A stretch of DNA of 37,648 nucleotides from Candidatus Palauibacter scopulicola. Lineage in GTDB: Bacteria; Gemmatimonadota; Gemmatimonadetes; Palauibacterales; Palauibacteraceae. This document shows positions 10,507-37,590 of this stretch, in pieces (positions within the stretch are counted from its first letter, which is position 1; each line of letters starts with the position of its first letter). Below the pieces are notes generated by a model. It worked only from the letters and a program-made list of their open reading frames with translations, searched no databases and had not been told where the DNA came from. The position numbers were made by a program, and so were the translations under genes. The stretch is taken from contig NZ_CANPWG010000049.1 of assembly GCF_947581915.1 (NCBI RefSeq), forward strand, positions 1-37,648, in the 5' to 3' direction.

Positions 10507-11760
10507 CTAGCGGCGGCCGTCGTCTCGGGTGAGGGGGCTCAGGTAGTCGCGGTTGCCGAGGCCGAGCTTCCGGAGGGCGATGCCGGTCATGCACTCGTCC
10601 ACAATCTTCTTGGCGTTGAGCATGGTCGTGTAGCCCGGGTCGACGAGCGGATTGAGTTCGACCAGGTCGAAGCCCACCACGTTGTTCTCCGAGCAGAGCC
10701 CGCGGACCATGTAGAACACCTCCCGGGGCGTCAGGCCTCCCGGCACCGGCGTCCCCGTGCCCGAGGTGTAGGCCGGGTCCATGACGTCGATGTCGAAGGA
10801 GATGTGCAGGTACTCGGGGCCTTCGTTCGCCTGGTCGAGGACTTCCGTCATGACGTTCGTCCAGCCGTCCCGGTCGATCTCGGCCATCGTGTGGTACCGC
10901 ATGTCGTTCGCCCGCATCCACTCGAACCCTGACGGCCCCGGCCAACTGCCCCGCAGCCCCACCTGGATGAAGTTCCGGCCGAGGATGTGGCCGTCATCGA
11001 TGAGGCGTCGCACCGGCTGCGCGTGCGAGATCAGGTGGCCGTGCCGGGCGTCCCCCGCGTCGTAGTGCGCGTCGAAGTGGATGACGCCGACGTTCTCCTT
11101 GCCGTACACGTCCGCGAGGCCCGCCACGTTGGCGAACTCGATCGAGTGGTCTCCCCCGATGATCACGGGGATGGCGCCGGTCTCCGCGATCTCTCGCACC
11201 ATCCGGCGGATCGGCGGCATGCTGCGCTCCACGCTCAGGTTGTCGATCGGCGCGTTGCCGTAATCGACCGCCGTGAGTTCGCTCCGCCACGAGATCATCG
11301 TCTCCATGCTGCCCACGCTGCGCCGCATGGCACGGAGCGCGGTCGGCCCCTCACCCGCCCCGCGGTACCCGACGCCCATGTCGACCGGCGCCCCCATGAA
11401 GGCGACTTCGACCTCGCCCGCGACGAGATCCTCGGGCGTGCGCGCGATCGGCAGCCCGAAGAAGGTGAGGACGGACCCGACCTCGATGGGTCCGGGTTCC
11501 CGCGGAGGATCCCCGGAGATGTCCCGGTCCTGCCACACCGCGAGGTTGGGATCGCTCGCGTCGAGCCGGATGATGGCCGAGTCGGGCGGGAGCGGCTCCC
11601 GCTCGGGGACAGTGTCGCCCGCGGCGTCCGTCACAGGGTCGGTCGGGTCCGCCGGCGCATCCGCAGCCGCGACATCGCCGGATTCCGGCGGCGGAACCTC
11701 GCAGGCCGTGAGGAGCAGACCGCACAGGAGGAGAGCGGAGGAAGACGGTCGGGATGTCAT
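10507..11760 (-). CDS. Lipoprotein of the ureohydrolase (agmatinase/arginase) family
   Basis: A 417-aa protein with all ureohydrolase manganese ligands: H205 (GGDHS), D230-H232-D234 (DAHYD) and D323-D325 (DID in SFDIDVMDPAYTSGTGTP). This family hydrolyses guanidino compounds such as agmatine or arginine to urea plus an amine. Unusually, it begins with a lipoprotein signal: hydrophobic core LLLCGLLL, lipobox LLTAC with C20, then a Pro/Asp/Ala linker to about residue 75. The enzyme is therefore predicted to sit in the periplasm or at the outer membrane rather than in the cytosol. It is 9 bp downstream of the small coiled-coil protein and may be co-transcribed. Confidence 0.9.
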   Translation of the reverse strand: MTSRPSSSALLLCGLLLTACEVPPPESGDVAAADAPADPTDPVTDAAGDTVPEREPLPPDSAIIRLDASDPNLAVWQDRDISGDPPREPGPIEVGSVLTFFGLPIARTPEDLVAGEVEVAFMGAPVDMGVGYRGAGEGPTALRAMRRSVGSMETMISWRSELTAVDYGNAPIDNLSVERSMPPIRRMVREIAETGAIPVIIGGDHSIEFANVAGLADVYGKENVGVIHFDAHYDAGDARHGHLISHAQPVRRLIDDGHILGRNFIQVGLRGSWPGPSGFEWMRANDMRYHTMAEIDRDGWTNVMTEVLDQANEGPEYLHISFDIDVMDPAYTSGTGTPVPGGLTPREVFYMVRGLCSENNVVGFDLVELNPLVDPGYTTMLNAKKIVDECMTGIALRKLGLGNRDYLSPLTRDDGRR

Positions 11761-11769
11761 GGCTTCGAA

Positions 11770-12072
11770 CTAAGGGAGAAGTCGACGGCGACGGTCGGAA
11801 ACGTCCTCCGTCGTCAGCCGCCGGGACGTTCCCGCGGGAACGCGTGAGACCGGTGGCACTTCACGGAGCGCTTCCTCAATGCTGATCAAACGGGCGTTGA
11901 GCCGGTCAAATCCATCCGACATGTTGGCCTCCAGGGATTCGATCTTGCCTTCCACCGTTCCCATACGGCCCGAGAACGAGAACAGCCCGCTGGCTAGCAT
12001 GATAACAAGCATGACGAAGGACACCCCGAAGGACGCCCAACTCAGCAACGTTTTTTGGTTGATGCGTGCCAC
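11770..12072 (-). CDS. Small single-pass membrane protein with coiled coil
   Basis: A 100-aa protein: cytoplasmic MARINQKTLL, one membrane helix (about 12-32, ASFGVSFVMLVIMLASGLFSF), then a heptad-patterned helix (about 36-72, VEGKIESLEANMSDGFDRLNARLISIEEAL) and a basic tail. It starts at GTG 12072 behind AAGGAAGG. No family function is known; the form resembles small membrane tethers. The gap to the ureohydrolase is 9 bp. Confidence 0.75.
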   Translation of the reverse strand: MARINQKTLLSWASFGVSFVMLVIMLASGLFSFSGRMGTVEGKIESLEANMSDGFDRLNARLISIEEALREVPPVSRVPAGTSRRLTTEDVSDRRRRLLP

Positions 12073-12194
12073 GTGTCCTTCCTTTCTGCGACTGATAACA
12101 CCGTACTACGCCAGGCGTTCGGACGCTAACTCGCCGTGCGTGGCTCCATGCGACATCGCCTGGCGAGGTGGATGCCCACGGAGCCTGGCCCCTC

Positions 12195-12248
12195 GCAACA
12201 CCAAGGTCCGCCGCGGTCTCAACGGCGCATCATCAGGTTGAGACCGCG
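12195..12248. repeat. Diverged copy of a dispersed repeat, with a 12-bp-stem hairpin
   Basis: The motif TCCGCCG..GTCTCAAC..GC.CATCATCAG seen here (12195-12236) recurs at 23752 and 24378. In this copy only, the core is followed by its reverse complement: CGCGGTCTCAAC (12212-12223) pairs perfectly with 12237-12248 across a 13-base loop. It lies 61 bp downstream of the stop of the leftward LRR gene and may serve as its transcription stop, although no T-run follows. Apart from this, the 236-bp gap 12073-12308 shows no coding signal. Confidence 0.6.
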
Positions 12249-12308
12249 TGTCACCACGGCGCACCGGTCACACTTCACGTTCGATGGAGGGGCCGTTCTC
12301 TCAGCCGA

Positions 12309-15017
12309 TCACGGTGTCGGAGCCTTGCGGCGCGCGCTTCCGGGCAGGCCGCGGCTGACCAGAATGTCCGTTGCATACGTCGATCCGACCGCCGTGCCGA
12401 GGGACGTGACGGCATCCCGCACGGCGTCTTCCCCGCGGAGGATCGCCCTGATTCGCCCCGTGGCTCGATCCGTCACGAGCGCCATCGGAGCGTCGCTCCC
12501 GCCATCCAGCACGGCGGCGCCTTCCGGCCCCGAGAGGACGATCCGGTCGAGCGAGTGCGTCCAGCGGTCGTCGAACGGGATCGCGAAAAGGAAGCTGCCC
12601 CCGCCGTGGTCAACCCGCTCCAGGTCGAAGTTCAACCGGAACAAGCTCTCGCCGTTCGCCCCGGAACCCTCCACCCGGTAAGGCCCGCCCGAAGCCGGAA
12701 GCCTCGGCGAGGCGTCGAGCACGAAAGCGGGATCGAGCTTCAGTCTGCCGCCCGGACTCACGCGGCCCCACAGCAACAGTTGCGCGCCCCGAATGTCCCC
12801 GGTGACCGCAGCGTCGCGTCCGGGAGCCGCGTCGTTCTCGAAGCGGTGCTCCAGCGCCTTGTCGAAATGATAGTCGCTGATCCACTGGGGCCCACAGTAC
12901 GTCATGAGGTCGGGAGTGGATGAGGCGACGAATTCGTCGCTGCGGAAGTCATAACCCGGCACGCCTATGTTGCCGCCCTCGTACGGATAACGGCGATCCA
13001 CGCCGCGCGGATCCCCGCACGGCGCGTGTGCCAGGCCCATGTTGTGCCCGAGTTCGTGGGCCATGGTCGCGGCGTTCGACACACCGAGGCTGGTCCGAGC
13101 CCCAATCAATCCAATCCCACCTCGATCCGCGGCCACCACCGCGTACCAGTACTCGTCCAGGGCCCCGGCGCTGGTTTGGACGAGCCTGATTTCCTGGAGT
13201 ATCTCCGCCATGCCCTCGTATCCGGCCCCCGTCCAGACGGGCCGTATCTCGGTAGATGTGTGGAAGGTCGGGGCGACTTCGAGACCGAGATCACCGACCG
13301 GCAGAATGTTCGTCACGAATTCGATGCTCGGGTCGTCGGGTTCGAGCGCCGAGGCCCACTCCAGCGCGCTGCTGTCGGGCGCAGGTCCGAACAGCACCGG
13401 CACGATCGTCAGATGCAGGCTCGGCATCGGCCGCACGTCGAGCCGCAGGTCACCCCGCTCCGGCAGGCGATCGAGCCTGCCCGCCGCCCTCGGCACGACG
13501 CTGTCGGGATCGATCTGAACCACCATCCGAACTCCTGGCCGCAGCACATCGCCGGGCACGACCGCGCGGAAGGACCGGTCCGGTTTCTCGGAGTCCACAA
13601 GCTCCGGAAGTCCGCCCGATGGGAACTCCATCTCGACTCTGTGCGCTTCCGATCCATCCACCTCGAAGGCCGCCCATGCGCGAGGCCGGTAGGTGTTCGC
13701 GGAGTCGGCGGTAACGAAGACCCTGAGCAGCGCCGGTCGTCCCGCGATGAGGGGGACGTCGCCCTCGAAGTTCTGTGCGGCCTGAGTCAGGTGAGCACCA
13801 TGCACTGCCAGTACGGGTGAGCCCCGACAGTTCCCGGTTCCGCTGCCGCCGGCCGCACCTCGAGAATGTTCCGCGATCGAGCGCAGCCACGCCTGGAAGA
13901 CCGGATCCGGAGGAGCGCAAAGGTCGGTGGACGACCAGTTGAAGCGCGCGAGCGACAGATCGATGAACTGAAGCGGGATCGGACCGCTCAGTGGATTGTC
14001 ATGCAGGTCCAGCGATTCGAGGCTCTCGAGATCTCCGAGTTTGGGTGGAATCCGACCGGTGAGTTCATTCTCCTGGACGTGCAGCGACTGAAGGCCATGG
14101 AGGTTTCCGAGTTCGGACGGGATCGAACCGCGTAGTTCGTTCTCCTGGAGTTCCAGTGATTGAAGGCTGCCCAGGCCTCCGACTTCGGCTGGAATCGAAC
14201 CCCCGAGTGCGTTTTGCTGAAGATCCAGGGTCTGGAGGCTGTCGAGACCTCCCAGTTCGGACGGAATCGAGCCATTCAGAGTGTTCCCGTGCAGATCCAG
14301 TGCCCGAAGGCTCCACAGCGTGCCCAACTCGGGCGGTATCGGGCCGCTGAGGGCATTGCCCGAAAGGTCGAGGCGCTCGAGGCGCTCCAGGTCTTTCAGG
14401 GCGGGCGGAATGAGACCCTTCAGACCGTTCTCCGCCAGGTTCAGCCTCGTGACCCGCCCCACAAGGTCCGTCTCCACACCGTACCAGGTGCGTAGCGGGC
14501 GACCGGTCAACCAGTTCTCCGCGTTGATCCAGTCCGTACCGCCGGTCTCCGCGTGGAGCGCGACGAGGGTTCGGGTCATCGTCATGTCGACGACGATCTC
14601 CGCCGTCCCCTGAGGACCGCCCTCGACGCCGGCCAATGCGGCCGTGATCTCGACCGATCCCTCTCCGGTCGACGTGACGCGTCCCTGGTCGTCCACCGTT
14701 GCAACGGAGGGATCACCCGATGACCAGGAGATGGTCTGGCGATGAACGACCTGGTCGTTCTGGTCACGCACCGTCGCGTGGAGGCCGGTCTCGACTCCGA
14801 TCGAGTACAGGGTCGCCGAAGCGGGCACCACCGTGATCGTGGTTGGCACGGGAGCAGGCGGCGGCGGGGGCGGAGGCGCGACCGGCTCCTCGCCCCCGCA
14901 GGCCACTGCCGAAAGGACGACCAGTGACGCCACCGCTCCAGGACGGGGGGGTACGTCGCCCCGACCCCAGCGGTGTAATCCGCGCACGCCCTCCTCCTCT
15001 ATCGCCGTTGCGGTCAT
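12309..15017 (-). CDS. Modular lipoprotein: Ig-like + leucine-rich repeats + metzincin protease
   Basis: A 902-aa exported protein. ATG 15017 is preferred; a TTG at 15053 is the alternative. A lipobox LSAVAC leads to Cys followed by a poly-Pro linker. Then come a Big_2-like Ig domain (about 60-140: TITVVPASATL...WSSGDPSVATVDDQGRVTSTGEG), eight or so plant-type LRRs (about 180-345, consensus LxxLxxLDLxxNxLxGxIPxELG), a beta-rich region, and a zinc protease domain with HELGHNMGLAH (H654, E655, H658, H664), the metzincin signature. All three His and the Glu are present. The likely role is a surface-attached endopeptidase targeted by the LRRs. The natural substrate is unknown. Confidence 0.88.
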   Translation of the reverse strand: MTATAIEEEGVRGLHRWGRGDVPPRPGAVASLVVLSAVACGGEEPVAPPPPPPPAPVPTTITVVPASATLYSIGVETGLHATVRDQNDQVVHRQTISWSSGDPSVATVDDQGRVTSTGEGSVEITAALAGVEGGPQGTAEIVVDMTMTRTLVALHAETGGTDWINAENWLTGRPLRTWYGVETDLVGRVTRLNLAENGLKGLIPPALKDLERLERLDLSGNALSGPIPPELGTLWSLRALDLHGNTLNGSIPSELGGLDSLQTLDLQQNALGGSIPAEVGGLGSLQSLELQENELRGSIPSELGNLHGLQSLHVQENELTGRIPPKLGDLESLESLDLHDNPLSGPIPLQFIDLSLARFNWSSTDLCAPPDPVFQAWLRSIAEHSRGAAGGSGTGNCRGSPVLAVHGAHLTQAAQNFEGDVPLIAGRPALLRVFVTADSANTYRPRAWAAFEVDGSEAHRVEMEFPSGGLPELVDSEKPDRSFRAVVPGDVLRPGVRMVVQIDPDSVVPRAAGRLDRLPERGDLRLDVRPMPSLHLTIVPVLFGPAPDSSALEWASALEPDDPSIEFVTNILPVGDLGLEVAPTFHTSTEIRPVWTGAGYEGMAEILQEIRLVQTSAGALDEYWYAVVAADRGGIGLIGARTSLGVSNAATMAHELGHNMGLAHAPCGDPRGVDRRYPYEGGNIGVPGYDFRSDEFVASSTPDLMTYCGPQWISDYHFDKALEHRFENDAAPGRDAAVTGDIRGAQLLLWGRVSPGGRLKLDPAFVLDASPRLPASGGPYRVEGSGANGESLFRLNFDLERVDHGGGSFLFAIPFDDRWTHSLDRIVLSGPEGAAVLDGGSDAPMALVTDRATGRIRAILRGEDAVRDAVTSLGTAVGSTYATDILVSRGLPGSARRKAPTP

Positions 15018-15189
15018 CGTCTCGCTGGTCCTGGAGGTGTCAGGCCAGTACAAGGCGACCTGCCGTCAGAGCAGAACATCTCTTCGGAAGATAAGGCGTT
15101 TTGCGTAGACGGAACGTGCACGACGGCGCTATTTTTGTGTCGGAAAGATGTATTCATGCAGACTCCACCATTTTCCGCAGATAAGACGC
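15018..15189. promoter_or_regulatory. Divergent control region between LRR protease and sensor kinase
   Basis: The 172-bp gap must contain promoters for both outward genes. GCGCTATTTT at 15127-15136 recurs at 17649-17658 upstream of the MORN-like gene, in both cases 43-54 bp before a start and with GTGCA a few bases upstream. A related pair, CGGAAGATAAGGCG (about 15085) and CCGCAGATAAGACG (about 15175), also occurs here. These could be -10-type elements or response-regulator sites; neither role can be proven by eye. Confidence 0.35.
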
Positions 15190-15909
15190 ATGACCCACGT
15201 CGAAGAGCTGAGGCGCGAGAACCGGGCGCTCAAGGACCGCTTCGCCCGGCTGAGCGGTGCGGTGCTGCGCATCAGCTCGAGCCTCGATCTGGACACGGTG
15301 CTCCAGGAGGTCATCGATGGCGCGCGGGCGCTGACCGGCAGCCGCAAGGGCATCATCACGACGATCGACGGACGCGGCCGGCTCGTGGACTTCCTGAGCT
15401 CCGGTTTCACGCCCGAAGTGCTCCAGGAGCTGGTGACGTGGCCCGAAGGCCCCCGGTTCTTCGAGCATCTCCGAGACCTTTCCGAACCGTTCCGCCAAGC
15501 GGATGTTCCCGCCTACCTGACCTCTCTGGACCTGCCCGTGGCCCCGTGGTTCACGAAGACGATGCAGGGCGCACCGATGCACCACCGAGGCGAGCATCTC
15601 GGCCATTTCTTTCTCGGCGACAAGGAGAACGACGAGACGTACACGGGCGAGGACGGAGGAGATCATGGTGCTGTTCGCTTCGCAGGCCGCGGCTGCGATC
15701 GCCAACGCGCGCACGCACCGCGACGTGCAACGCGCACGGGCGGACCTGGAGGCCCTGGTCGAGACCTCGCCGTTTGGCGTGGCGGTGTTCGACCCCGGCA
15801 CCGGTCGGATTGCGTCGATCAACCGCGAGGCGCACCGCATGGCCGAGGCGATCCGCACGCCGGGCTCCCCGCCGGAGCAGCTATTGGAGGTGCTGACGTG
15901 CCGACGTGA
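15190..15909 (+). CDS. GAF-domain N-terminal half of a frameshifted sensor kinase
   Basis: The frame opens at ATG 15190 (MTHVEELRRENRALKDR, a coiled-coil start) and encodes a GAF domain (about 12-155: LDLDTVLQEVIDGARALTGSRKGII...GHFFLGDKENDETYTGED). Coding sense ends near 15655; the remaining codons to the stop at 15907 are an Arg/Gly-rich shadow of the next frame. The natural continuation (IMVLFASQAAAAIANARTHRDV) lies in frame +2, starting at 15662. One extra G at about 15655-15656 (GACGGAGGAG where GACGAGGAG is expected) accounts for the break. It may be a real mutation, a phase-variable or recoded site, or a sequencing error. Confidence 0.7.
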   Translation: MTHVEELRRENRALKDRFARLSGAVLRISSSLDLDTVLQEVIDGARALTGSRKGIITTIDGRGRLVDFLSSGFTPEVLQELVTWPEGPRFFEHLRDLSEPFRQADVPAYLTSLDLPVAPWFTKTMQGAPMHHRGEHLGHFFLGDKENDETYTGEDGGDHGAVRFAGRGCDRQRAHAPRRATRTGGPGGPGRDLAVWRGGVRPRHRSDCVDQPRGAPHGRGDPHAGLPAGAAIGGADVPT

Positions 15910-26472: not shown

Positions 26473-26580
26473 ATCTCAGCGCCTTGCTGCGCCCGAAGGT
26501 TCTGTGCAGTAGAGGACGACCTGAGACGTATGCGCGAAGTATCGTCAGATCCCACCCAAAACGCAACTTGTGGAGTTGTC

Positions 26581-27294
26581 ATGCTATCCATCGGAAGCCT
26601 TCGAAGTGCGCTCTCGGCGGAGCGGCTGAGCGCCTACGCCCTGCCTGACGACATCGACGAAGTCGACAGCGTGGCGAGATACCTGTGGAACCTGGCGCTG
26701 TGCAGCGCCCTCCAACCGGCGCTTCATACCCTTGAGATTACCGTCCGGAACCACCTCTTAAGGATTTCCGGAAGGATCGTGGATCAGGCGACGCTCCGTT
26801 TTGATAAGGTCCCGTGTTGGCTCGACGCCCAACCCTCGCTGCTTGCCAACCGCGAGCGTCAGGCCGTCGAGACGGCGAAGAGTACGATCGCGAGCCGGAG
26901 CCGTCCGATGACCGAAGGCCGGCTTGTCTCCGCTCTGGGGTTTGGTTTCTGGGTGAGCCTGTGCAAGAAGCCATATGACCAAGGGCGTGCCGGCCGGTCC
27001 AGCCTCTGGCCCGAACTGGCAACGAGGGGATTCCCGCATCTACCCAAAGCCCAGCGCACACGCAGCCAGATCTTCCACGCCTTGGATCCGCTCCGCGACC
27101 TGCGTAACCGCGTTTCTCACCATGAGTCCGTTTGGGACCGGAAGCTCAACCGAAGTCATCAGGACATCCTCGAGACCATTGGCTGGATCAACCTCGACCT
27201 GGCGACGACCCTGCGGGCACACTCGCCGCTGCCTGAAGTGCTCGAGAGGGGCGTAGCCGGCTTCCGTGCTCAGGCTGAAGCAATCATCAAGTGA
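26581..27294 (+). CDS. Abi-like (Abi_2/AbiF type) HEPN protein
   Basis: A 237-aa protein. ATG 26581 (MLSIGSLRSALSAERLSAY) has GGAG 6 bp upstream and matches the usual Abi_2 opening; a longer frame from 26530 is less likely. The body (VARYLWNLALCSALQPALHTLEITVRNHLLR) and the RNRVSHHESVW segment near residue 180 are typical of Abi-like proteins. RNRVSH fits the Rx4-6H motif of HEPN RNases. Relatives are linked to abortive infection or toxin-antitoxin-like phage defence by RNA cleavage. It is convergent with the XRE-ImmA gene (gap 26 bp) and has no obvious antitoxin. Confidence 0.85.
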   Translation: MLSIGSLRSALSAERLSAYALPDDIDEVDSVARYLWNLALCSALQPALHTLEITVRNHLLRISGRIVDQATLRFDKVPCWLDAQPSLLANRERQAVETAKSTIASRSRPMTEGRLVSALGFGFWVSLCKKPYDQGRAGRSSLWPELATRGFPHLPKAQRTRSQIFHALDPLRDLRNRVSHHESVWDRKLNRSHQDILETIGWINLDLATTLRAHSPLPEVLERGVAGFRAQAEAIIK

Positions 27295-27320
27295 TGTCGG
27301 CCCGGCGCCACCTCGGCCGG

Positions 27321-28400
27321 TCACCGGTTGGCGGGACCGGCGATCTGCCGCTCGACCACGTCGAGGGATTCGTTGAGGAGAGTGGCCGCCCGGATCGGCG
27401 AGATCAGCTCTTCGCCGACCGCGCGGCAGACAAGGCTCCTGAAGCGCTGGGGCTTCTCGAACGCCGCGAATCCTTCGTTGCCCTCGAGGGGTTCCGGTTC
27501 AGTCTTCCGCCAGGAGCGGGCGAAGGTTCGAAATGCGCGTCGGACCGCGGCAGGGGTCAGAGCGCCGACCTGGCCGAGACGTACGAGCATGGCGGCCGCC
27601 GACACCCCGTACGTGTGTTTGAGGCGGATGATCTCACAGTAAGTGATCCGGCGACGTCCCTCACCGGCTCTCTCACGGAGATGCCGACCCGGGACGAGGA
27701 AGGCGACCGCGAAGCGGTTCATCGCAGCTTCCAGCTTGATGGCTGGGTTGCCGGTGGCACGGATCATCCTGTGCGCGAGGTCGTGGGCCAGGGTGAGGCG
27801 TTTCCGCTCGACGTTGGCCCGACTCGATACGAGGACGGCGTCGGCGACCGGCTTGCCCCCTCGCAGGACCTGGCAGGCCAAGCCGCTGATGCGCGCCGGG
27901 AGATCGTCTTCGATCACCTTGATCCCTTTCTCATCGAGGAGGCCGCACAGGTTGGGCACGGGATCGAGGCCGAGGTCCCACGCGTTGCGGAGTTCGTCGG
28001 CCATGCCGTCGATCTCTTCGGCCTCGGCAACGCTGCCACAACGACGGCCTTCAAAACGATCGCTCGCAGGCGGAATGCCGAGGATCTCCTCGATGGTCAG
28101 GTATCGCTCGAGGTTGTCGATCAGCACGGCTTCGGCTCTGGCGCGATCCCGGGCGGAGGTGCCGGAGTGCTTCCGGAACTCAAGGCCGTCGAGGATCTCA
28201 ACCTGGGAACTCATGAGGAAGTCCACCGAGACGTCGAGGGCCTTCGCGAGACCGACCAGGACCGCCGAACGGGGCATCATCTTCCCGGTCTCGTACTTGC
28301 TGATGGCCTGAGCGGTGATCCTCGGATCCATCCGCTCGGCCAGCGCGCGCATGGAAAGGCCGGCGCGTTTGCGGGCGAGCCGTAGCCGTCGTCCAAACAT
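27321..28400 (-). CDS. XRE regulator fused to ImmA/IrrE-type domain (HDxxH variant)
   Basis: A 359-aa protein. An XRE helix-turn-helix (about 5-62: LRLARKRAGLSMRALAERMD...ISKYETGKMMP) is followed by a helical linker (EFRKHSGTSARDRARAEA) and an ImmA/IrrE-like domain. In this family a HExxH zinc-protease motif cleaves phage or SOS-type repressors. Here the motif reads H206-D207-L-A-H210, with Asp in place of the catalytic Glu; the downstream E224 is kept (LEAAMNRFAVAFLVP). The protein may therefore bind metal but cleave poorly, or use Asp. Ribosome site AAGGAGAG is upstream. It is divergent from the AAA+ gene, whose control region holds a palindrome suited to XRE binding, so mutual regulation is likely. 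Confidence 0.9.
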   Translation of the reverse strand: MFGRRLRLARKRAGLSMRALAERMDPRITAQAISKYETGKMMPRSAVLVGLAKALDVSVDFLMSSQVEILDGLEFRKHSGTSARDRARAEAVLIDNLERYLTIEEILGIPPASDRFEGRRCGSVAEAEEIDGMADELRNAWDLGLDPVPNLCGLLDEKGIKVIEDDLPARISGLACQVLRGGKPVADAVLVSSRANVERKRLTLAHDLAHRMIRATGNPAIKLEAAMNRFAVAFLVPGRHLRERAGEGRRRITYCEIIRLKHTYGVSAAAMLVRLGQVGALTPAAVRRAFRTFARSWRKTEPEPLEGNEGFAAFEKPQRFRSLVCRAVGEELISPIRAATLLNESLDVVERQIAGPANR

Positions 28401-28615: not shown

Positions 28616-29602
28616 ATGGCCAGTGCCGAGCAGCTCAAGGCGTTGCTGAGGTCGCATCTGGAAGGCGACGACGACCGATTCATCTCGGTCGCCATGCAGG
28701 TTGCCGCCCACGAAGCGAAGGTTGGGCACGGCAAACTGGCCACCGAACTCCGCGACATTATCGACAAGGCCAAGAGCCGACGTGGGGCTGGATCCCCGGT
28801 GCCGATCGGTCGACCGCGCGGCGAACTGGCCAACCTGCTCGAAGCTTCGTTCCCCAAGGCACGGTTGGGGGACATGATCCTCGGGAAGGCCCTGGCGAGT
28901 CGCATCGACCGAATCATTCGTGAGCAGCGCCACGCCAGCCAGATCCTGGATCACGGCCTCTCGCCGAGGCGCAAGCTCCTGCTCGTGGGCCCTCCGGGTA
29001 CCGGGAAGACGCTTTCCGCATCCGTCCTGGCGGGAGAACTCGGTCTCCCCCTGCTCCAGGTTCGGCTTGACGGCCTGATCACCAGGTTCATGGGAGAGAC
29101 CGCGGCCAAGCTGCGGCAGATCTTCGACGCCACCGGCCAGACACGAGGCGTTTACTTCTTTGACGAGTTCGACGCCATCGGCTCGGAACGCGGGATCGCC
29201 AACGACGTGGGCGAGATCCGGCGGGTGCTGAACAGCTTCCTCCAAATGATCGAGCAGGACGACTCGCACAGCATCGTGATGGCCGCGACCAATCATCCGA
29301 GCGTACTCGACCAGGCGCTCTTCCGCCGCTTTGACGACATCCTTCACTTCGAGATGCCGGACGAGGACCAAATCGCCGAGCTGTTGAAGACGCGGGTTGG
29401 TCCGCGCGCTTCGCAGGACATCACGTGGGGCGACCTCGCGTGGCGGGCAGTGGGCCTGAGCTTCGCGGACGTGGCGCGGGTGGCAAACGACGTTCTCAAG
29501 GACGCACTCGTCGGGCAGCGGCAGCAGATCCAGGCGGAGGAGATTCGGGCGGTGATCGACGAGCGCAAAGCGGTCGCCATTCTCCCCGACCCGAAGGAGT
29601 AG
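28616..29602 (+). CDS. AAA+ ATPase (SpoVK/CDC48-like single domain)
   Basis: A 328-aa ATPase. A helical N-terminal domain (1-90) precedes the AAA+ core: Walker A GPPGTGKT (125-132), pore-loop region near FMGE (158-161), Walker B VYFFDEFD (179-186), sensor-1 ATN (224-226), arginine fingers R237/R238 (FRRFD), and a small helical lid with LSFADVARVANDVLK. These features indicate a hexameric remodelling ATPase. Relatives are often paired with subtilisin-like proteases or other effectors in defence islands; no protease is encoded here, but two small genes follow closely. A GGAGG site precedes the ATG. An extended -10 promoter lies upstream and it is divergent from the XRE-ImmA gene. Confidence 0.9.
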   Translation: MASAEQLKALLRSHLEGDDDRFISVAMQVAAHEAKVGHGKLATELRDIIDKAKSRRGAGSPVPIGRPRGELANLLEASFPKARLGDMILGKALASRIDRIIREQRHASQILDHGLSPRRKLLLVGPPGTGKTLSASVLAGELGLPLLQVRLDGLITRFMGETAAKLRQIFDATGQTRGVYFFDEFDAIGSERGIANDVGEIRRVLNSFLQMIEQDDSHSIVMAATNHPSVLDQALFRRFDDILHFEMPDEDQIAELLKTRVGPRASQDITWGDLAWRAVGLSFADVARVANDVLKDALVGQRQQIQAEEIRAVIDERKAVAILPDPKE

Positions 29603-30699: not shown

Positions 30700-30956
30700 G
30701 CTCTCGTCCCAACGGGAGGAGAAGTCGGGCGGACGTGGCGAACGCTTCGATAGGGCGGGTGGCGGCTCTCTTGGTCCTACGGCAGATGCCAGTGATGTTC
30801 CATCAACTCCTCTCCCTCCACCAAGAGACTCGGGAACATTCGACAAGGCAGGCAAGGAGTGAGGCCAAGTAGAGCGACGATCAGAAGTTCTGGGAGGAGG
30901 TCACGGCCCGGAAGGATCCCGACCCGCCCGCGGGCATCCTCGAAGGCGACGCTGGA

Positions 30957-31142
30957 ATGAAGCTCCACGAGGACATGGCCGTTGAGAGCGGGATCGTCGG
31001 GCAACTGTTCGAGGAGGACTTCACGACCGCTGACGACGCTGACATCCAGCTCGATCTTGAGAAGAAACTGGAGTCCCTGGGGCGTTACCGTGGCGCACTC
31101 AAACAGACTCGCGGGGATCTCGAAGAGCTGGGGGCTCTCTGA
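30957..31142 (+). CDS. Small helical protein at the head of the CD-NTase operon
   Basis: The 61-aa frame from ATG 30957 is acidic and helical (MKLHEDMAVESGIVGQLFEEDFTTADDADIQLDLEKKLESLGRYRGALKQTRGDLEELG). Its TGA overlaps the CD-NTase ATG by one base (TGATG at 31140-31144), which implies coupled translation and supports a real gene. The same frame extends upstream without a start as SDDQKFWEEVTARKDPDPPAGILEGDAG to an in-frame TAG (30870-30872). Beyond that it continues back to GTG 30735 behind GGGAGGAG. The full-length gene may thus be 30735-31142 with a nonsense codon. Function unknown. Confidence 0.55.
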   Translation: MKLHEDMAVESGIVGQLFEEDFTTADDADIQLDLEKKLESLGRYRGALKQTRGDLEELGAL

Positions 31143-32026
31143 TGGGGCTCGCCGCCTGGTTCAGCACGTTCTGCGGTAACATACAGGTCAGGAACGGAGC
31201 GACGATCTCCAGCCGATACAAGAGTATCACCCGACGGCTGAATACCGACTTCTGGACAACGACATCGGACACCGCGCATAGCCTCCAGGTCGGCTCGTAC
31301 GGCCGCAATACAGCCATTCATGGTACGAGCGACGTGGACATGATCTTCCAGTTGCCCTACTCGGTCTACCAGCAGTACGACAGCCACGTCGGCAATGGCC
31401 AATCCGCGCTGCTGCAAGCCGTCCGCGCGTCGGTCAGAAAGACCTACCCCGCTACGGACATCGGGGCGGACGGCCAAGTGATCGTGGTTTCCTTCGGGGA
31501 TTCCATCAGGTTCGATCTCGTTCCCGCCTTCACCAACAAGGACGGCAGCTACACCTACCCCGACTCGAACGGCGGCGGGAGCTGGAAGAAGACGAACCCG
31601 AGACCGGAGATCGAGGCTATTCGCACCCGCAACGATGCCTGCAATGGCAACCTGATCCCGCTGTGCCGAATGATGCGGGCTTGGAAGACCAAGATGGCCG
31701 TGCCCATCGGTGGCCTTCTCATTGACACGCTGGCGTATCAGTTCATCGGTTCGTGGAAGTACCGCGACAAGTCCTACCTCTACTACGACTGGATGTGCCG
31801 CGACTTCTTCGATTTCGTGGCCCGCCAGGACAAAGAACAGCAGTATTGGAAGGCCCCCGGGAGCGGCCAACGGGTGTACGGCCCCAAAGGTCAGTTCCAG
31901 TACAAGGCAAGACGCGGCTACAACCTGGCATGCGAGGCCATCGAGCACGAGACGGCCGATCCGAAGCGGGAGTGGTCGGCGAAACAGAAGTGGAGGGAGA
32001 TCTTTGGCACCTCATTCCCGAGCTGA
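31142..32026 (+). CDS. CD-NTase / SMODS nucleotidyltransferase (CBASS-like)
   Basis: A 294-aa nucleotidyltransferase of the cGAS/DncV-like group. The polymerase-beta fold active site is complete: the G51-S52 motif (QVGSYGRNTAI), D64-x-D66 (SDVDMIF) and the third Asp D125 (IRFDLVPAF). The C-terminal helical domain includes LCRMMRAWKTKM and GGLLIDTLAYQFI. In CBASS, such enzymes sense infection and make cyclic di- or trinucleotides that activate an effector. Here the effector candidate is the SLATT protein encoded 7 bp downstream. The ATG overlaps the previous stop. No Cap2/Cap3 or HORMA/TRIP13 genes are visible, as in the simplest CBASS operons. The nucleotide product cannot be predicted. Confidence 0.93.
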   Translation: MGLAAWFSTFCGNIQVRNGATISSRYKSITRRLNTDFWTTTSDTAHSLQVGSYGRNTAIHGTSDVDMIFQLPYSVYQQYDSHVGNGQSALLQAVRASVRKTYPATDIGADGQVIVVSFGDSIRFDLVPAFTNKDGSYTYPDSNGGGSWKKTNPRPEIEAIRTRNDACNGNLIPLCRMMRAWKTKMAVPIGGLLIDTLAYQFIGSWKYRDKSYLYYDWMCRDFFDFVARQDKEQQYWKAPGSGQRVYGPKGQFQYKARRGYNLACEAIEHETADPKREWSAKQKWREIFGTSFPS

Positions 32027-32033
32027 AACGCCC

Positions 32034-32696
32034 ATGGATTCCAGAGACTACATCGAAGCGCAACTGCGCGACTGCTATGGGCGCGTCGTCTATTCCCACA
32101 AGGCGCATGAGAAGTGCGCGGACCTCCTTCTGACGAGGCTGTCCAGGATCAAGCTCGCGCAGATCATTCTCGCGTCCGTGACGACGGGGAGCTTCATTTC
32201 CGCGTTCTTCGGAACCGGGGATGTCGGCACGGCCGTCGGTCTCGTCGTTTCTGCGACGCTCGTCGCGTTGAATACATACACCAAGGACTACGACCTCGGT
32301 AGGCTCGCGCAGAAGCACCGCCAGTCCGGAGCGGAGCTATGGCTCATCCGCGAGGAATACCTATCGCTCATCACAGATCTGCGAGTTGGGGATGAGTCCG
32401 TCGAGAACATTCGATTGCGGCGCGACGCGCTTCTCGAGCAATTGCACGCCGTCTACGCCGGAGCACCCAGTACGACGGTTCGAGCGTATACGGAGGCTCA
32501 AAAGGCGCTGCAACAGTTGGAGGAGTTGACCTTCTCCGACGACGAGATCGACAAGCTGCTGCCCCCTCGGCTGAGGAGCACTACCGCGCGGCCTGATGGC
32601 AGCGACCAGCCCAAGGCTAGCGTGAATCGCGACGAGGCAGGACGAGCGCACGAGGGGAATGGCAGCGCTCTCCACATTGACCAGGAGACCAAGTAA
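32034..32696 (+). CDS. SLATT-domain two-TM effector
   Basis: A 220-aa protein starting at ATG 32034. An amphipathic N-terminal helix region (MDSRDYIEAQLRDCYGRVVYSHKAHEKCADLLLTRL) precedes two membrane helices (about 40-60, AQIILASVTTGSFISAFFG, and 63-82, VGTAVGLVVSATLVALNTY). A long helix with YDLGRLAQKHRQSGAELWLIREEYLSLITDL then completes the SLATT signature. SLATT proteins are thought to be membrane-perturbing or pore-forming effectors activated by nucleotides made by SMODS enzymes, causing abortive death of infected cells. The C-terminal 45 residues are a disordered polar tail. The next gene starts directly after its stop. Confidence 0.92.
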   Translation: MDSRDYIEAQLRDCYGRVVYSHKAHEKCADLLLTRLSRIKLAQIILASVTTGSFISAFFGTGDVGTAVGLVVSATLVALNTYTKDYDLGRLAQKHRQSGAELWLIREEYLSLITDLRVGDESVENIRLRRDALLEQLHAVYAGAPSTTVRAYTEAQKALQQLEELTFSDDEIDKLLPPRLRSTTARPDGSDQPKASVNRDEAGRAHEGNGSALHIDQETK

Positions 32697-33530
32697 GTGA
32701 GGCAAGGGAGAACACGGAGCTGCGGAGACAGGTGGGATGAGCACTACCGGGGTACCAAGTACCACTGCAAGCCTGATGGCGAGTTCTGGTGGGGGCTTCC
32801 TGACCGCCAAAACATGGCGACCGTGAGGGTCGCGGCCACCGGTGGATTCCAGGAGGTCGCCGACGCCTACCTCTCGCTCAGGCCCGAGGGCGGGAGTCTC
32901 CGCATTACCGAGACCGGCGTCGTCCTTACCAGAATGCCGACCGACACCTGGGAGGCCGTGTATGTCGCCGACTATGATGTCCCCTTGGAGTTCGCCTCCG
33001 TGGACGTCCTGGGCAGCGGCGTCCCGCCCCTCGGGCTGTGGCCGTCCTTCTACGACGGTGCCCGGTACTCCTACAAGGGGGGTCGCCTTTGGTGGAAGAA
33101 CTCCGCCGATGGCGTGTGGCAGAAGACCCGGGAGACGTTGCCGGCTGAGATCGAAGCTCGCTTCCGAAAAGTGAAGCCCGACGGGGGCTCCATACGAGTC
33201 ACAGAGAACGGCAAGGTGCTCGCTCTCATTGAGCCACAACCGTTGCCCGCGGGGATGAAGGACCAGTACGAGGCGCTCACGGACCTCCAGAAGCGCCTCA
33301 TCGAAGTGAAGATGCGCAACGTCGCACTGCTGCCCGTGTTCCTCGGTGAGTACTCGGGCGGATTCACGCTACATGAAGCAATCGATCTCTCCGCCCCGCT
33401 CACCCCAGGCGAGGAAGCCGACCTCATGGCCTTCCTGTCGCAGTACGGAGAGGCGATTGAGGACAATGCGCCGGCACCGTTCGATCCGCTCGCGGAGCAC
33501 GAAGACGCCCTGGATCGGGAGGACAACTGA
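32697..33530 (+). CDS. Unrecognised protein A with two copies of a repeated module
   Basis: A 277-aa protein whose GTG directly abuts the SLATT stop; AGGAG lies 10 bp upstream. Module copy 1 (about 17-100): YRGTKYHCKPDGEFWW...VADAYLSLRPEGGSLRITETGVVLTRMP...YVADYDVPLEF. Copy 2 (about 119-218): YDGARYSYKGGRLWW...GGSIRVTENGKVLALIE...VFLGEYSGGF. Shared elements are YxGxxY...GxxWW and GGS(L/I)R(I/V)TExGxV. Similar copies occur in the next gene and at the helicase C-terminus. The C-terminal 50 residues are acidic. The module is beta-rich and reads like a binding domain; no catalytic motif is seen. Its stop overlaps the next ATG (TGATG). Confidence 0.85.
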   Translation: MRQGRTRSCGDRWDEHYRGTKYHCKPDGEFWWGLPDRQNMATVRVAATGGFQEVADAYLSLRPEGGSLRITETGVVLTRMPTDTWEAVYVADYDVPLEFASVDVLGSGVPPLGLWPSFYDGARYSYKGGRLWWKNSADGVWQKTRETLPAEIEARFRKVKPDGGSIRVTENGKVLALIEPQPLPAGMKDQYEALTDLQKRLIEVKMRNVALLPVFLGEYSGGFTLHEAIDLSAPLTPGEEADLMAFLSQYGEAIEDNAPAPFDPLAEHEDALDREDN

Positions 33531-34348
33531 TGAGACTCCGTTCGATCAACGTGCAGGGCGCCAACGGCGAAACCCGATCCGTTCGTCCAGGTGAACCGTG
33601 GCCCGCCCCGTACCGCGGCAGTCGGTACAAAGTACGCCGCGGCGGGGGACTAACGTACGTGGGCTGGTACCGTGATCCTCTGAGCGTCCGGGCCGAACCA
33701 TATCCACGGCAGCTGGCCGATACTGTTCGCGCGGTCAAGGGAGGCAACGGTTCGTTCCGGGTTACCCCACACGGGGCAGTGATTACCAAGGTGCTGAGGG
33801 GCGGTGGCACCTGGTGGGAGCCCCGGTACGTGGGAATCTACGAAGACGACCTTGTGTTCCCCGGCATCGACAACGCACCGGCAACGCTGACTCGGGGCAT
33901 GTACTGGCCCGGCCTCCCCTTCATGCACGGTGAGTATTGGCGTGTCTCCCCCAACACCCAGTTGCGGAACCGCCTCGAATGGAAGTCGCGTGGTCACGTC
34001 TTCTCCTCAACGCGCGGATATCCAGACCTGGTCTCAGCCTGTCTGGACCTGCGGCCGGGGGGAGGCCGGATCTACATCACTGAATCCGGCTGCGTGTGGA
34101 TGAACGTGCCTGACGGTGACCTCAACCCGGACCATCGGACCCAGTTTCGACGTCTTCAGCGATCGCAACTCGAGGACCTTAAGGAAGCCCGGGCGTCCGC
34201 CACGCTGCGACTGCTCCGGGAGCGCATTGAAGCAACCAAGGGTTGTCGTCCCCTGTACGTAGGGCGGCTCTCCGAGTTCGACCACGGCGAACCTCCCTGG
34301 ACGGCATTCGAGTCGTCTCCACCAGAAGACGATGGAAAAGAGGCGTAG
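33530..34348 (+). CDS. Unrecognised protein B with two copies of the same module
   Basis: A 272-aa protein, ATG overlapping the previous stop by one base. Copy 1 (about 28-112): YRGSRYKVRRGGGLTYVGWY...ADTVRAVKGGNGSFRVTPHGAVITKV...RYVGIYEDDLVFPG. Copy 2 (about 131-255): HGEYWRVS...YPDLVSACLDLRPGGGRIYITESGCVWMNVP, a helical insert, then PLYVGRL. It is clearly related to protein A: SLRPEGGSLRITETGVV in A lines up with DLRPGGGRIYITESGCV here. No catalytic motif, membrane segment or signal peptide is seen. The helicase follows 3 bp later, so stoichiometric production with A and the helicase is expected. Confidence 0.85.
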   Translation: MRLRSINVQGANGETRSVRPGEPWPAPYRGSRYKVRRGGGLTYVGWYRDPLSVRAEPYPRQLADTVRAVKGGNGSFRVTPHGAVITKVLRGGGTWWEPRYVGIYEDDLVFPGIDNAPATLTRGMYWPGLPFMHGEYWRVSPNTQLRNRLEWKSRGHVFSSTRGYPDLVSACLDLRPGGGRIYITESGCVWMNVPDGDLNPDHRTQFRRLQRSQLEDLKEARASATLRLLRERIEATKGCRPLYVGRLSEFDHGEPPWTAFESSPPEDDGKEA

Positions 34349-34351
34349 AGG

Positions 34352-37252
34352 GTGTCCCGCGGAGTCAGACTTCCGACGCTCTACCCCATGCCGCGCAACA
34401 GGGCACAGTACTGGGTGTGTTATCAGGCCTCTCTGGCTGAGCCCACGGTGGAGGAATGCAGGAAGTTGGTCCGCGAAGAACTGATCCGTGAGGACGGCCG
34501 GCCCTACGGTGAGGGGATGGTCGCCGGACTCGTTTCCAACCTTGCAGGGATCGGATTCCTGCGGCGTTCCGGGCGCCGGATTCTGCCGCCCGACCGCTTC
34601 CCCTTCGGACGGTTTTCGTGGGATGGAACGTGGGACGGCTCGCCCGACGGTTTCGAAGAGTACGTTGACAAGACGATCCTCAAGTGGTGCTGGTGGTGGC
34701 CAGATGGCCTTCAGCTTGCCTACGACCTGCTGTCTGCCCTCGATAACTCCGAAACTGGCCTGGGCGTAACGCAACTCTGGGACCGTTTGAGGATCGATCC
34801 GGCCGGCGGAACCGGTCGGTACGACGGTGGCGATCGACATGGAGCGCGGACCGTCTCAGAAACGCTTCGGGTCATGGAGTTTGCAGGTTGGGTCGAACTC
34901 CAAGGCAGAAAACGAGTCGTCACAGCGCGTGGACGGCGGCGTCGGCCCAGTCTGAGGAAACGCGATACCTATCACCGGATCGAGCGCATCCTCGCCACGA
35001 TCGATCCCTTTTCCACCGACATACTCGACCAATCGCAGTGGATCGATCTGACGAAACTCTTCATGTGGCGGGAGAGTGGTGGCAAGGGAAGACGGACCCC
35101 GATCCGAGAGACTCGCGACCAGCTCTTCACGAACCGCTACTCGAGGACCCTGAAGTCTGAGATCCGCAGTGAAATTGACCGCAGCCAGCGCACCTTGTCC
35201 GACCTGAGGTCCGAGATCGCCGACTACGACGCTTCGCTCGGACACCGGGTCGAGAACGTCCGTAACGCGGCGAAGCTCGTCCGAATACGAGACCACCTCG
35301 CCGAAGGGAAGGTGGAACAGGCGGAATTGAGTCTGGACTCCTCGGGGGCAGGCCTGTCAGGTCGGGCCCTTCGCGAACTGAAGCACCCCGGATCCGACTA
35401 CTCGCTCGCTCCGTCTCTGGCGCCCTACCGTTGGCAGTCGGAAGCGCTCCGCTGCTGGAGCGACGCTGGAGGTCGAGGCGTTCTCCAAGTCGTTACGGGA
35501 GCGGGAAAGACCTTTCTGGCGCTTCTGGCCATCGAGCGGCTGCTCGAGTCGCACCCCGAACTCCGCGTGAGCGTCCTCGTGCCCACCAAGGTACTCATGT
35601 ACCAGTGGGTCATGGAGCTTGTCCGCTTACTGGGTGTCCCGCCGGATGACGTCGGGCTCCGTGGAGATGGGCACAAGGACGGGTTTGTTGAAGGCCGGAG
35701 AATCGTCGTAAACATCATCAACTCGGCGATCCTCGATGACCAGCTCAAGAAAGACGCAGCGAGCCTGCCCCCGAACACGCCTCACCTCCTGATTGCGGAT
35801 GAATGCCATCGATACCGTGGCCGAGCATTCCGTCGGGCCTTCGGCGCACGCTACGATTTCAGCATGGGACTCTCTGCCACGCTGGGGGACTCCTCCCGGG
35901 CGAACAGCGGGGAGGGCTCTGAGGAGTCCGATGACCCGCTGTTGTCGGAGCTAGGGTCCCTGGTCTACGAATACACGTACCAGCAGGCAAGATCCGACGG
36001 TGTCGTCCAACCCTTCGAAGTCTACTACGTGGGCGTCGAACTCAGCACTTCAGAGCGTACTCAATACGAGGCGTACAGCAAGCGTATTCGGACCGCCTTG
36101 CAGAAGATTCGCCAACGGTACGGGCCGCGAATCGACGCGATGCCAGGACCGTTTTACGCACGTCTCCACACGATCCTGCATGGCGACGAGAGACCGGATC
36201 CCGCCATCCCCAAGTACTTCGAGGCCGTCCGGGAGAGGAAGGAGCTCGTCTATCGGGCGCGGAACAGGAAGTGGGCCTATCTGGATATCGTCGCGAAACA
36301 CGCGGTCCGCAGTGACGGCCAGGAAGACCGCATCATCGTTTTCGACGAACGCATCGAGAACGTTCAAGAGGTCGTTGCGCCGATGGATCGACGGAAGGCC
36401 CGTCAGCTCGGCCCGGTGGAACGAGCCATCAACAATCAACTTGCAGAGCTGCTGTGGAATCGGGCATTTCGCGCGGTCATGTATCACTCGGGGCGATCGA
36501 AGCCCCTGTGGAACGAGATCTCGATGGAGTTCTTTCGGGAGGGCTGGGCAAACGTGATGCTCTCCGTGAAGGCCCTGGTGGAAGGTGTCGATGTTCCGGC
36601 CGCCAATGTGGGGATCATTCGGGCCTCTTCCAGTTCCGTTCGCCAACGCATCCAGACGACCGGCCGGATCCTCCGACGGGCGGCTGGCAAGAATAGCGCA
36701 GCCAAGCTCTACGTCATTTTCGTAAGGGACACGACGGACGAGCGAATCTTCCACGGTACCGATTGGGCGGAGCAATTGGGATCCAGCCAGATTCGCTGGA
36801 TTCACTGGTTCCCACCGACAGAGCTAGGGTCGCCCGGAGGCGATTGGCGCGAGGGGCAACCTCCGGACCTTGAATCAGGGTGGGAAGAGGAGACTCTCCC
36901 CGAATTCGAGGTCGACGACCTCACGCCTGGTGATCCGTATCCGGGCGCCTATGCGGGCAGGGAATACCATGTGGACGCATCGGCCAGACCTTTCAAGAAC
37001 ACTCGGGACGGGCGCCGGCGAATAACCAACGTCGATGTCGCGACGGCGGCTGCCCTGGTCTTCCAGCTCAAGCGCGGAGGGAAATTCGTAGTCACGCCCG
37101 AGAACCACATGATCACGCGGGTGGGGAGGGATCTGGTGTTCCTGGGGGTCCTAGACGGCGAACCGCAGTTGGAGCCAACAAGGTCTTCAAGGGTCCCCCA
37201 CACCGGCAGCCCGCCGACTTTCGAAGAGCTATTCGGTAGGCGTGACGCCTAG
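34352..37252 (+). CDS. SF2 DECH-box helicase with C-terminal copy of the repeated module
   Basis: A 966-aa protein starting at GTG 34352. The N-terminal 250 residues contain winged-helix-like segments (YGEGMVAGLVSNLAGIGFLRRSG; TVSETLRVMEFAGWVELQGRKRVV) and a charged helical linker. The SF2 motor has motif I VTGAGKT (about 377-384), DECH (about 482-486), GLSATL motif III, and motif VI QTTGRILRRAAGK (about 767-779). All core residues are present, so it is a likely ATP-driven translocase on nucleic acid. The C-terminus (about 867-938: YAGREYHVDASARPF...VATAAALVFQLKRGGKFVVTPENHMITRV...LVFLGVLDGEP) repeats the module found in proteins A and B, which suggests that the three act together. Similar helicases serve in anti-phage systems such as Hachiman. 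Confidence 0.9.
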   Translation: MSRGVRLPTLYPMPRNRAQYWVCYQASLAEPTVEECRKLVREELIREDGRPYGEGMVAGLVSNLAGIGFLRRSGRRILPPDRFPFGRFSWDGTWDGSPDGFEEYVDKTILKWCWWWPDGLQLAYDLLSALDNSETGLGVTQLWDRLRIDPAGGTGRYDGGDRHGARTVSETLRVMEFAGWVELQGRKRVVTARGRRRRPSLRKRDTYHRIERILATIDPFSTDILDQSQWIDLTKLFMWRESGGKGRRTPIRETRDQLFTNRYSRTLKSEIRSEIDRSQRTLSDLRSEIADYDASLGHRVENVRNAAKLVRIRDHLAEGKVEQAELSLDSSGAGLSGRALRELKHPGSDYSLAPSLAPYRWQSEALRCWSDAGGRGVLQVVTGAGKTFLALLAIERLLESHPELRVSVLVPTKVLMYQWVMELVRLLGVPPDDVGLRGDGHKDGFVEGRRIVVNIINSAILDDQLKKDAASLPPNTPHLLIADECHRYRGRAFRRAFGARYDFSMGLSATLGDSSRANSGEGSEESDDPLLSELGSLVYEYTYQQARSDGVVQPFEVYYVGVELSTSERTQYEAYSKRIRTALQKIRQRYGPRIDAMPGPFYARLHTILHGDERPDPAIPKYFEAVRERKELVYRARNRKWAYLDIVAKHAVRSDGQEDRIIVFDERIENVQEVVAPMDRRKARQLGPVERAINNQLAELLWNRAFRAVMYHSGRSKPLWNEISMEFFREGWANVMLSVKALVEGVDVPAANVGIIRASSSSVRQRIQTTGRILRRAAGKNSAAKLYVIFVRDTTDERIFHGTDWAEQLGSSQIRWIHWFPPTELGSPGGDWREGQPPDLESGWEEETLPEFEVDDLTPGDPYPGAYAGREYHVDASARPFKNTRDGRRRITNVDVATAAALVFQLKRGGKFVVTPENHMITRVGRDLVFLGVLDGEPQLEPTRSSRVPHTGSPPTFEELFGRRDA

Positions 37253-37278: not shown

Positions 37279-37590
37279 ATGAGCGTCCAGCTAATCCGCC
37301 ATGCGATAAGGTGCAAACAACCCATTTCCGCAACCTATCTGGGCAAACGGCGGATCCTGTGTCCTCACGTGATTGGCACGAAGAACGGTGTTTGGAACGT
37401 CCTCAGCTACCAGTCTGGCGGAGGAAGCAGCAGCGGACTCAGCACCAACCAGGCGGACAATTGGAGATGTATGCGTGTGTTGGAGCTAAGCCGCGTGGCA
37501 TCGGCACCCCACCATGGATGGCAGACAGCCCCACGCGCAACACGCCCGCAAACATGTGTCGATGTCGTCGACACCGAGGTAGCCTACTAG
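37279..37590 (+). CDS. WYL-like small protein closing the operon
   Basis: A 103-aa protein, ATG behind GGAGAGGAG, 26 bp after the helicase. Residues 1-72 (LIRHAIRCKQPISATYLGKRRILCPHVIGTKNGVWNVLSYQSGGGSSSG...WRCMRVLELSRV) match the SH3-like beta-barrel of short WYL-type proteins, which bind nucleic acid or nucleotide ligands and often accompany defence genes. The last 30 residues are of poor quality, so the original end may be shifted. It could regulate the operon or bind a signal. The final 58 bases of the window show no gene. Confidence 0.7.
   Translation: MSVQLIRHAIRCKQPISATYLGKRRILCPHVIGTKNGVWNVLSYQSGGGSSSGLSTNQADNWRCMRVLELSRVASAPHHGWQTAPRATRPQTCVDVVDTEVAY

Follow-up and report, generated by a model that had tools for sequence, protein, structure and literature searches.

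The DNA analysed here (hereafter the window) is 37,648 nt long and makes up an entire contig (NZ_CANPWG010000049.1) of the genome of Candidatus Palauibacter scopulicola, a member of the Gemmatimonadota. Near its end lie three consecutive genes, which encode two proteins referred to here as A and B and a superfamily 2 (SF2) helicase; a repeated module occurs in all three products (Table 1). The three open reading frames (ORFs) of this trio are intact and tightly packed: the ATG of B and the stop codon of A overlap by 1 nt, and the helicase starts 3 nt past the end of B. The helicase has a 93% identical counterpart in a metagenome-assembled genome of a Candidatus Palauibacter.

Table 1 Features in and next to the A–B–helicase trio, numbered from the first nucleotide of the window
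Feature	Position	Strand	Basis or remark
Protein A, 277 aa	32697..33530	+	ORF; two module copies, then a C-terminal tail predicted to be helical
Module copy A1	32721..32996	+	Shuffles, leave-one-out hidden Markov model (HMM), hhalign, module profile
Module copy A2	33030..33365	+	Insert before the last strand, predicted to be helical
Protein B, 272 aa	33530..34348	+	Full-length paralog of A
Module copy B1	33587..33859	+	Shuffles, leave-one-out HMM, hhalign, module profile
Module copy B2	33899..34288	+	Longest insertion of the copies
SF2 helicase, 966 aa	34352..37252	+	Pfam, NCBIfam and PADLOC motor matches
Helicase N-terminal region, aa 30–210	34439..34981	+	Winged-helix-like repeats by eye; without Pfam match
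Helicase motor, aa 354–800	35411..36751	+	GAGKT, DECH and SAT motifs
Module copy H, helicase C-terminus	36920..37165	+	hhalign, module profile, blastp to archaeal A
CD-NTase (SMODS), CBASS cyclase	31142..32026	+	Separable neighbour, outside the trio
SLATT_4 two-transmembrane effector of CBASS	32034..32696	+	Stop abuts the start of A

A first-pass annotation of the window had proposed that five copies of one module are spread over these genes and tie the helicase to its two neighbours, and had suggested that the three proteins may have a ligand in common or form a multimeric complex. Shuffling, hhalign and HMM searches confirm two copies in A (A1, A2), two in B (B1, B2) and one at the C-terminus of the helicase (H), and the coordinates are right. 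The motifs quoted for them are all in frame in the proteins named: GGSLRITETGVV in A1, GGSIRVTENGKV in A2, GNGSFRVTPHGAV in B1, GGRIYITESGCV in B2 and GGKFVVTPENHM in H. The length, noted earlier as 75–125 residues, is better given as ~80–92 aa, which A2 and B2 exceed owing to an insertion.

Compared as single sequences, 6 of the 10 copy pairs beat at least 998 of 1,000 shuffles (z = 5.6–12.2 for A1–A2, A1–B1, A1–B2, A2–B1 and A2–B2, and 3.6 for A1–H); B1–H is borderline (11/1,000), and A2–H, B1–B2 and B2–H give no signal above 1,000 shuffles. We then used profiles of each copy from nine loci: four bacterial (the window, L002, L003 and L004) and five on haloarchaeal plasmids (L007–L011). These profiles align above chance, with hhalign probabilities of 87–98% for eight copy pairs: 98% for A1–A2 and A1–B1, 97% for A2–B1 and A2–B2, 94% for A1–B2, 95% for A1–H, 94% for B1–H and 87% for A2–H. 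The other two pairs, B1–B2 and B2–H, are connected solely via other copies. Leave-one-out HMMs clearly recover A1, A2 and B1 (26–52 bits in members with the whole copy; decoys ≤6.2), recover B2 more weakly (15–27 bits) and are marginal for H (11–15 bits in bacterial members; best decoy 8.3), the archaeal H copies being missed.

H is thus the weakest copy by sequence, and is supported by profile–profile comparison (H–A1 scores 46.1 versus ≤25.6 in 60 column-shuffled controls). In the most powerful single test, a module profile built only from the window and its three close bacterial relatives was run against eight genomes or plasmids (three bacterial, five archaeal); each gives exactly five matches, a pair in A, a pair in B and a single one in the helicase, with no other match at E ≤ 1. 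Because the bacterial H copies in this profile may pull in archaeal H, homology between H and the copies in A and B rests on hhalign and on blastp, in which helicase residues 857–924 match an archaeal A protein, and not on the profile scan alone. In the archaeal records, the annotated starts of one B gene (L007, 15172–15855) and one A gene (L011, 12112–12849) are too late; the longer frames hold both module copies.

Between bacteria and archaea, the modules and the motor are the best conserved parts, and the linkers are poorly conserved. H is 41% identical between the two domains, compared with 26% in the preceding linker, 25% in the tail and 23–27% in the N-terminal part of the helicase (23–24% for aa 30–210). 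Only the motor lobes are better kept (45% identity in the first RecA-like lobe and 55% in the second), indicating that H is a maintained part of the helicase. By these sequence comparisons the module is real and common to all three proteins, and A and B align as paralogs along most of their sequence (hhalign 97%, E = 7.6e-11, 182 columns).

Neither A, B nor the module has an identifying match in Pfam, NCBIfam, PADLOC, PHROGs or the sequences of the PDB, so the earlier statement that no named domain corresponds to the module stands for these libraries and for solved structures. The named families that we considered for A and B were set aside as chance-level matches (CRR42-like, E = 0.018; SipA, E = 0.022; a phrog, E = 0.14; a CBS protein, E = 0.16). 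In viral contigs and phages we found no relatives of A or B, and helicase matches there are at the level of the motor only. Similarly, a literature search, with subscription papers and preprints mostly outside it, turned up no described system with this gene set, as had been suggested.

The tie between the three genes is borne out by their distribution, as the trio is retained, with its 2 + 2 + 1 copies, in organisms as distant as Gemmatimonadota and Haloarchaea. Among 72,556 plasmid records, A, B and the full-length helicase co-occur in the same five haloarchaeal records; other helicase matches in the plasmids span the motor only, with A and B absent, and one further record has a remnant-like 46-aa stretch of B alone. 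The archaeal orthologs are ~30–37% identical to the trio proteins of the window (A ~30–34% over most of its length; B ~29–35%). Two bacterial loci, L003 and L004, share a 4,569-bp stretch of ~90% identical DNA that starts 25 nt ahead of A and stops where the helicase gene ends, with no match outside. Because this match is bounded to the trio and L004 is without cyclase and SLATT genes, the trio moves on its own. A segment of 8.2 kb is 96% identical between two archaeal plasmids from distinct genera; besides A, B and the helicase it holds two further genes, one for a PD-(D/E)xK-like protein (weak NERD, Card1 and CARF-PDDEXK matches) and one whose product has a weak match to ribbon-helix-helix proteins.

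The gene order A–B–helicase recurs in three archaeal plasmids; in the other two (L007 and L010), B is oriented divergently from A and the helicase and is separated from them by genes for an SNF2 and an Mrr-like protein. The trees of the three proteins show no conflict in any well-supported branch. Ratios of nonsynonymous to synonymous substitution (dN/dS) are 0.11–0.19 for A, 0.17–0.33 for B and mostly 0.1–0.3 for the trio, indicating purifying selection. The distribution is sporadic: within the family 2 of 35 genomes have the trio, and within the phylum 2 of 395. The three genes are almost certainly one mobile unit, passed on and exchanged jointly across bacteria and archaea, with the 2 + 2 + 1 module copies present in every case.

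Defence-related genes lie near all nine loci. These are IetA, RmrA and a cyclic-oligonucleotide-based antiphage signalling system (CBASS) in the window; CBASS and a methyltransferase at L002 and L003; a BilD-like E1 protein, a methyltransferase and a second PbeA-like helicase at L004; a DrmD-like SNF2 protein at L007 and L010; AbiEi and a type I restriction–modification system at L008; PDC-S39 and MkoA-like proteins at L009; and a prokaryotic Argonaute (pAgo) at L011. Given these neighbourhoods, a defence role for the trio is likely, and we give a somewhat better than even chance to its being, more specifically, a mobile, three-subunit, ATP-driven and DNA-directed defence complex, which the new module would hold together or target. 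In such a complex, A and B would pair via their related modules into a heteromeric platform on which the helicase would dock by its C-terminal module. The motor, whose SF2 motifs are intact, could then translocate along or unwind invading DNA in an ATP-driven manner, and the complex might either block replication of the invader or pass the DNA on to an effector such as a nuclease.

No recognised nuclease occurs within the trio proteins, and the potential downstream neighbours vary: a CBASS cyclase with SLATT in three bacterial loci and a PD-(D/E)xK-type protein in two archaeal loci. By eye, the PD-(D/E)xK-like protein of L008 and L009 retains its ExK motif. In the bacterial loci, neither a PD-(D/E)xK-like nor an Mrr-like gene is directly attached. 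The Mrr_cat-like proteins next to B (L007, 14210–14962; L010, 13930–14883) were considered as the trio nuclease and rejected, given that their (E/Q)xK motif reads AIK and GIR and that they look inactive by eye.

Several points weigh against a defence complex of this kind. The defence role is guilt by association, and some of the PADLOC models involved (SNF2, methyltransferases) are unspecific; the arrangement in L007 and L010 means that the trio is not always one operon; the archaeal hosts are large plasmids, for which a role in plasmid maintenance is also possible; and AlphaFold2 confidence is low for A and for the module. Structure predictions, made from bacterial rows, gave a predicted local distance difference test score (pLDDT) of 58 for A (eight rows) and, for one module (20 rows), a pLDDT of 71 and a predicted template modelling score (pTM) of 0.65, with a strand, a helix and three strands. 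The models of A and of the module are too weak to reveal an interface. The best Foldseek match to either model has E = 0.011 against the PDB, and there is nothing below E = 1 against viral models. Sliding clamps (PCNA/DnaN) head both PDB lists (low-confidence model of A: E = 0.011, probability 0.33, TM-score 0.14; module model: E = 1.1, TM-score 0.28).

Sliding clamps are built of beta-alpha-beta-beta-beta units. Given the weak E-values, the low TM-scores and the many clamp chains in the PDB, we do not claim a likeness to clamps and treat it as a lead only. If the lead holds, the module may be a one-motif relative of the clamp unit, and A and B might encircle DNA partly or completely. A broader scenario that may include such a clamp-like ring is a cross-domain immune machine, in which a helicase and two paralogous scaffolds joined by a new module act as a sensor of invader DNA for varied effectors; these may be CBASS in bacteria and the PD-(D/E)xK nuclease in some archaea. 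We regard this scenario as rather improbable.

Among the alternatives to a docked complex, the one that we consider possible, with a chance clearly short of even, is that the module is a reader of a ligand or nucleic acid: the five copies would all read one molecule, without the three proteins having to contact one another by way of the module. The WW, YxG and GG positions conserved inside each module could form a binding face. However, a folded core or an interface would be expected to conserve such positions just as well, and no ligand-binding family matches.

It is unlikely that the trio serves plasmids and genomic islands outside defence, in replication, repair or maintenance, as an XPB-like helicase aided by two cofactors. 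The best matches of the helicase in solved structures are Rad25/XPB-type repair helicases, and the archaeal copies are found on plasmids, as this function would have it. However, the sporadic presence of the trio and its exchange as a bare cassette speak against it, as do flanks that change among defence genes, bacterial chromosomes included.

The preferred defence complex can also be compared with described helicase systems. The helicase matches ResIII (E = 2e-17), DEAD (E = 6.6e-11) and Helicase_C (E = 8.7e-8) in Pfam; in NCBIfam it matches dnd_restrict_1 (TIGR04095), the Dnd restriction helicase, as a motor likeness far below cut-off (E = 1.6e-40, 139.5 bits versus a cut-off of 600). By profile, its nearest SF2 motor is PbeA (PADLOC, E down to 1.2e-52 over aa 353–791, motor only), of the PbeABCD (CxC-ABC-DndE) systems, which like the trio are helicase-centred and known from haloarchaea and bacteria. 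PbeA is an HKD nuclease fused to an SF2 helicase, and its partners include a CxC ABC ATPase and DndE; in haloarchaeal PbeA the motor is partly dispensable, and protection was reported without visible DNA cleavage (PMC6459918, PMC10853773). The trio differs in having no HKD motif and no match to a CxC ABC ATPase, DndE or the small disordered protein, and A and B match no Pbe model.

These motor matches bear on a restriction reading of the Dnd/Pbe kind, in which the helicase would restrict DNA with or without a phosphorothioate or other mark that A and B read. In its favour, a type II methyltransferase of PADLOC family PDLC03323 lies near the trio in L002 and L004 and, by DNA identity, in L003. 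However, these methyltransferases lie outside the exchanged unit, and the HKD motif (HxKx4D) of the PbeA nuclease (PMC6459918, PMC10853773) was not found in the helicase, A or B of the trio proteins compared, the N-terminal 353 aa of the helicase being without a Pfam match. Nor did the neighbours scanned match PbeB, PbeC or PbeD, none of which is annotated beside the archaeal trios; dnd genes, dndCDE included, were likewise absent from the ORFs scanned and the archaeal annotation, a search limited to the surroundings of the loci. We therefore consider this reading quite unlikely.

Two further systems pair a helicase with a partner protein. Hachiman HamAB (PMC12278908) does so in defence, as proposed for the trio; however, the HamB match is weak and to the motor only (E = 6e-5), and at E ≤ 1 no PADLOC model, that of HamA among them, matches A or B. 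Type III Druantia (DruH–DruE), reported to halt viral DNA replication, likewise joins a large helicase to an uncharacterised partner (PMC13316683), but no Druantia model is among the PADLOC matches of the helicase.

Directly upstream of the trio in the window, L002 and L003, in the same gene order, is a type I CBASS composed of a CD-NTase (SMODS, E = 2.3e-54; PADLOC Cyclase, E = 2.2e-140) and a SLATT effector (SLATT_4, E = 8.6e-67). That the trio forms the accessory half of a larger, five-gene CBASS, its helicase complex sensing invader DNA and switching on the cyclase, whose messenger opens SLATT, is very doubtful and was dropped as the main interpretation: the five genes do run head to tail with small gaps in the window (7 nt between cyclase and SLATT, 0 nt between SLATT and A), but a CD-NTase with SLATT is by itself a known minimal CBASS layout, homology at L004 breaks just before A with no match to either gene, and none is annotated near the five archaeal trios. 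CBASS is a separable neighbour in three of the four bacterial loci and not a member of the trio, and a CBASS operon set head to tail with an unrelated cassette cautions against treating operon neighbours as one system.

The trio is thus a compact, clearly bounded candidate defence system common to bacteria and archaea, and is probably a new helicase-based antiviral system within the defence islands of sponge-associated bacteria and salt-loving archaea. Two protein families and one domain that it comprises are unnamed in every library used, and the shared module gives a concrete, testable prediction of how the subunits fit together. The archaeal carriers include described culture-collection strains such as Haloferax lucentense SVX82 and Natrinema pellirubrum DSM 15624, which makes the trio testable.

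The remaining observations concern the surroundings of the trio. Further upstream in the window, positions 28616–29602 encode an IetA-type AAA ATPase (PADLOC, E = 6e-74), downstream of which no long ORF stands out as its IetS partner, and positions 26530–28400 encode a PD-T4-5-like protein (E = 1e-16) and an RmrA-like protein with helix-turn-helix and ImmA/IrrE parts (E = 2e-42); the latter two proteins mark this end of the window as a defence island. Just upstream of the cyclase, a 208-bp stretch (30875–31083, corresponding to 4943–5151 in L002) is a remnant, the window having lost the rest of an HTH_17-helicase gene that L002 (3534–5558) and L003 carry in full. Behind the trio helicase, a small WYL-like protein (37279–37590) is also present in L002 and L003, and was not found in L004. 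The type II methyltransferases of family PDLC03323 lie downstream of the trio at 12565–13560 in L002, where the gene is paired with one for a HEAT-repeat protein, and at 13219–14181 in L004. Directly behind the latter is the second helicase (14204–15277), ~30% identical to the trio motor and with no copies of A or B beside it. In L007, the SNF2 and Mrr-like genes flank a gene (10656–13943) for a cysteine-rich protein of 1,095 aa, which contains dozens of short repeats resembling zinc fingers.

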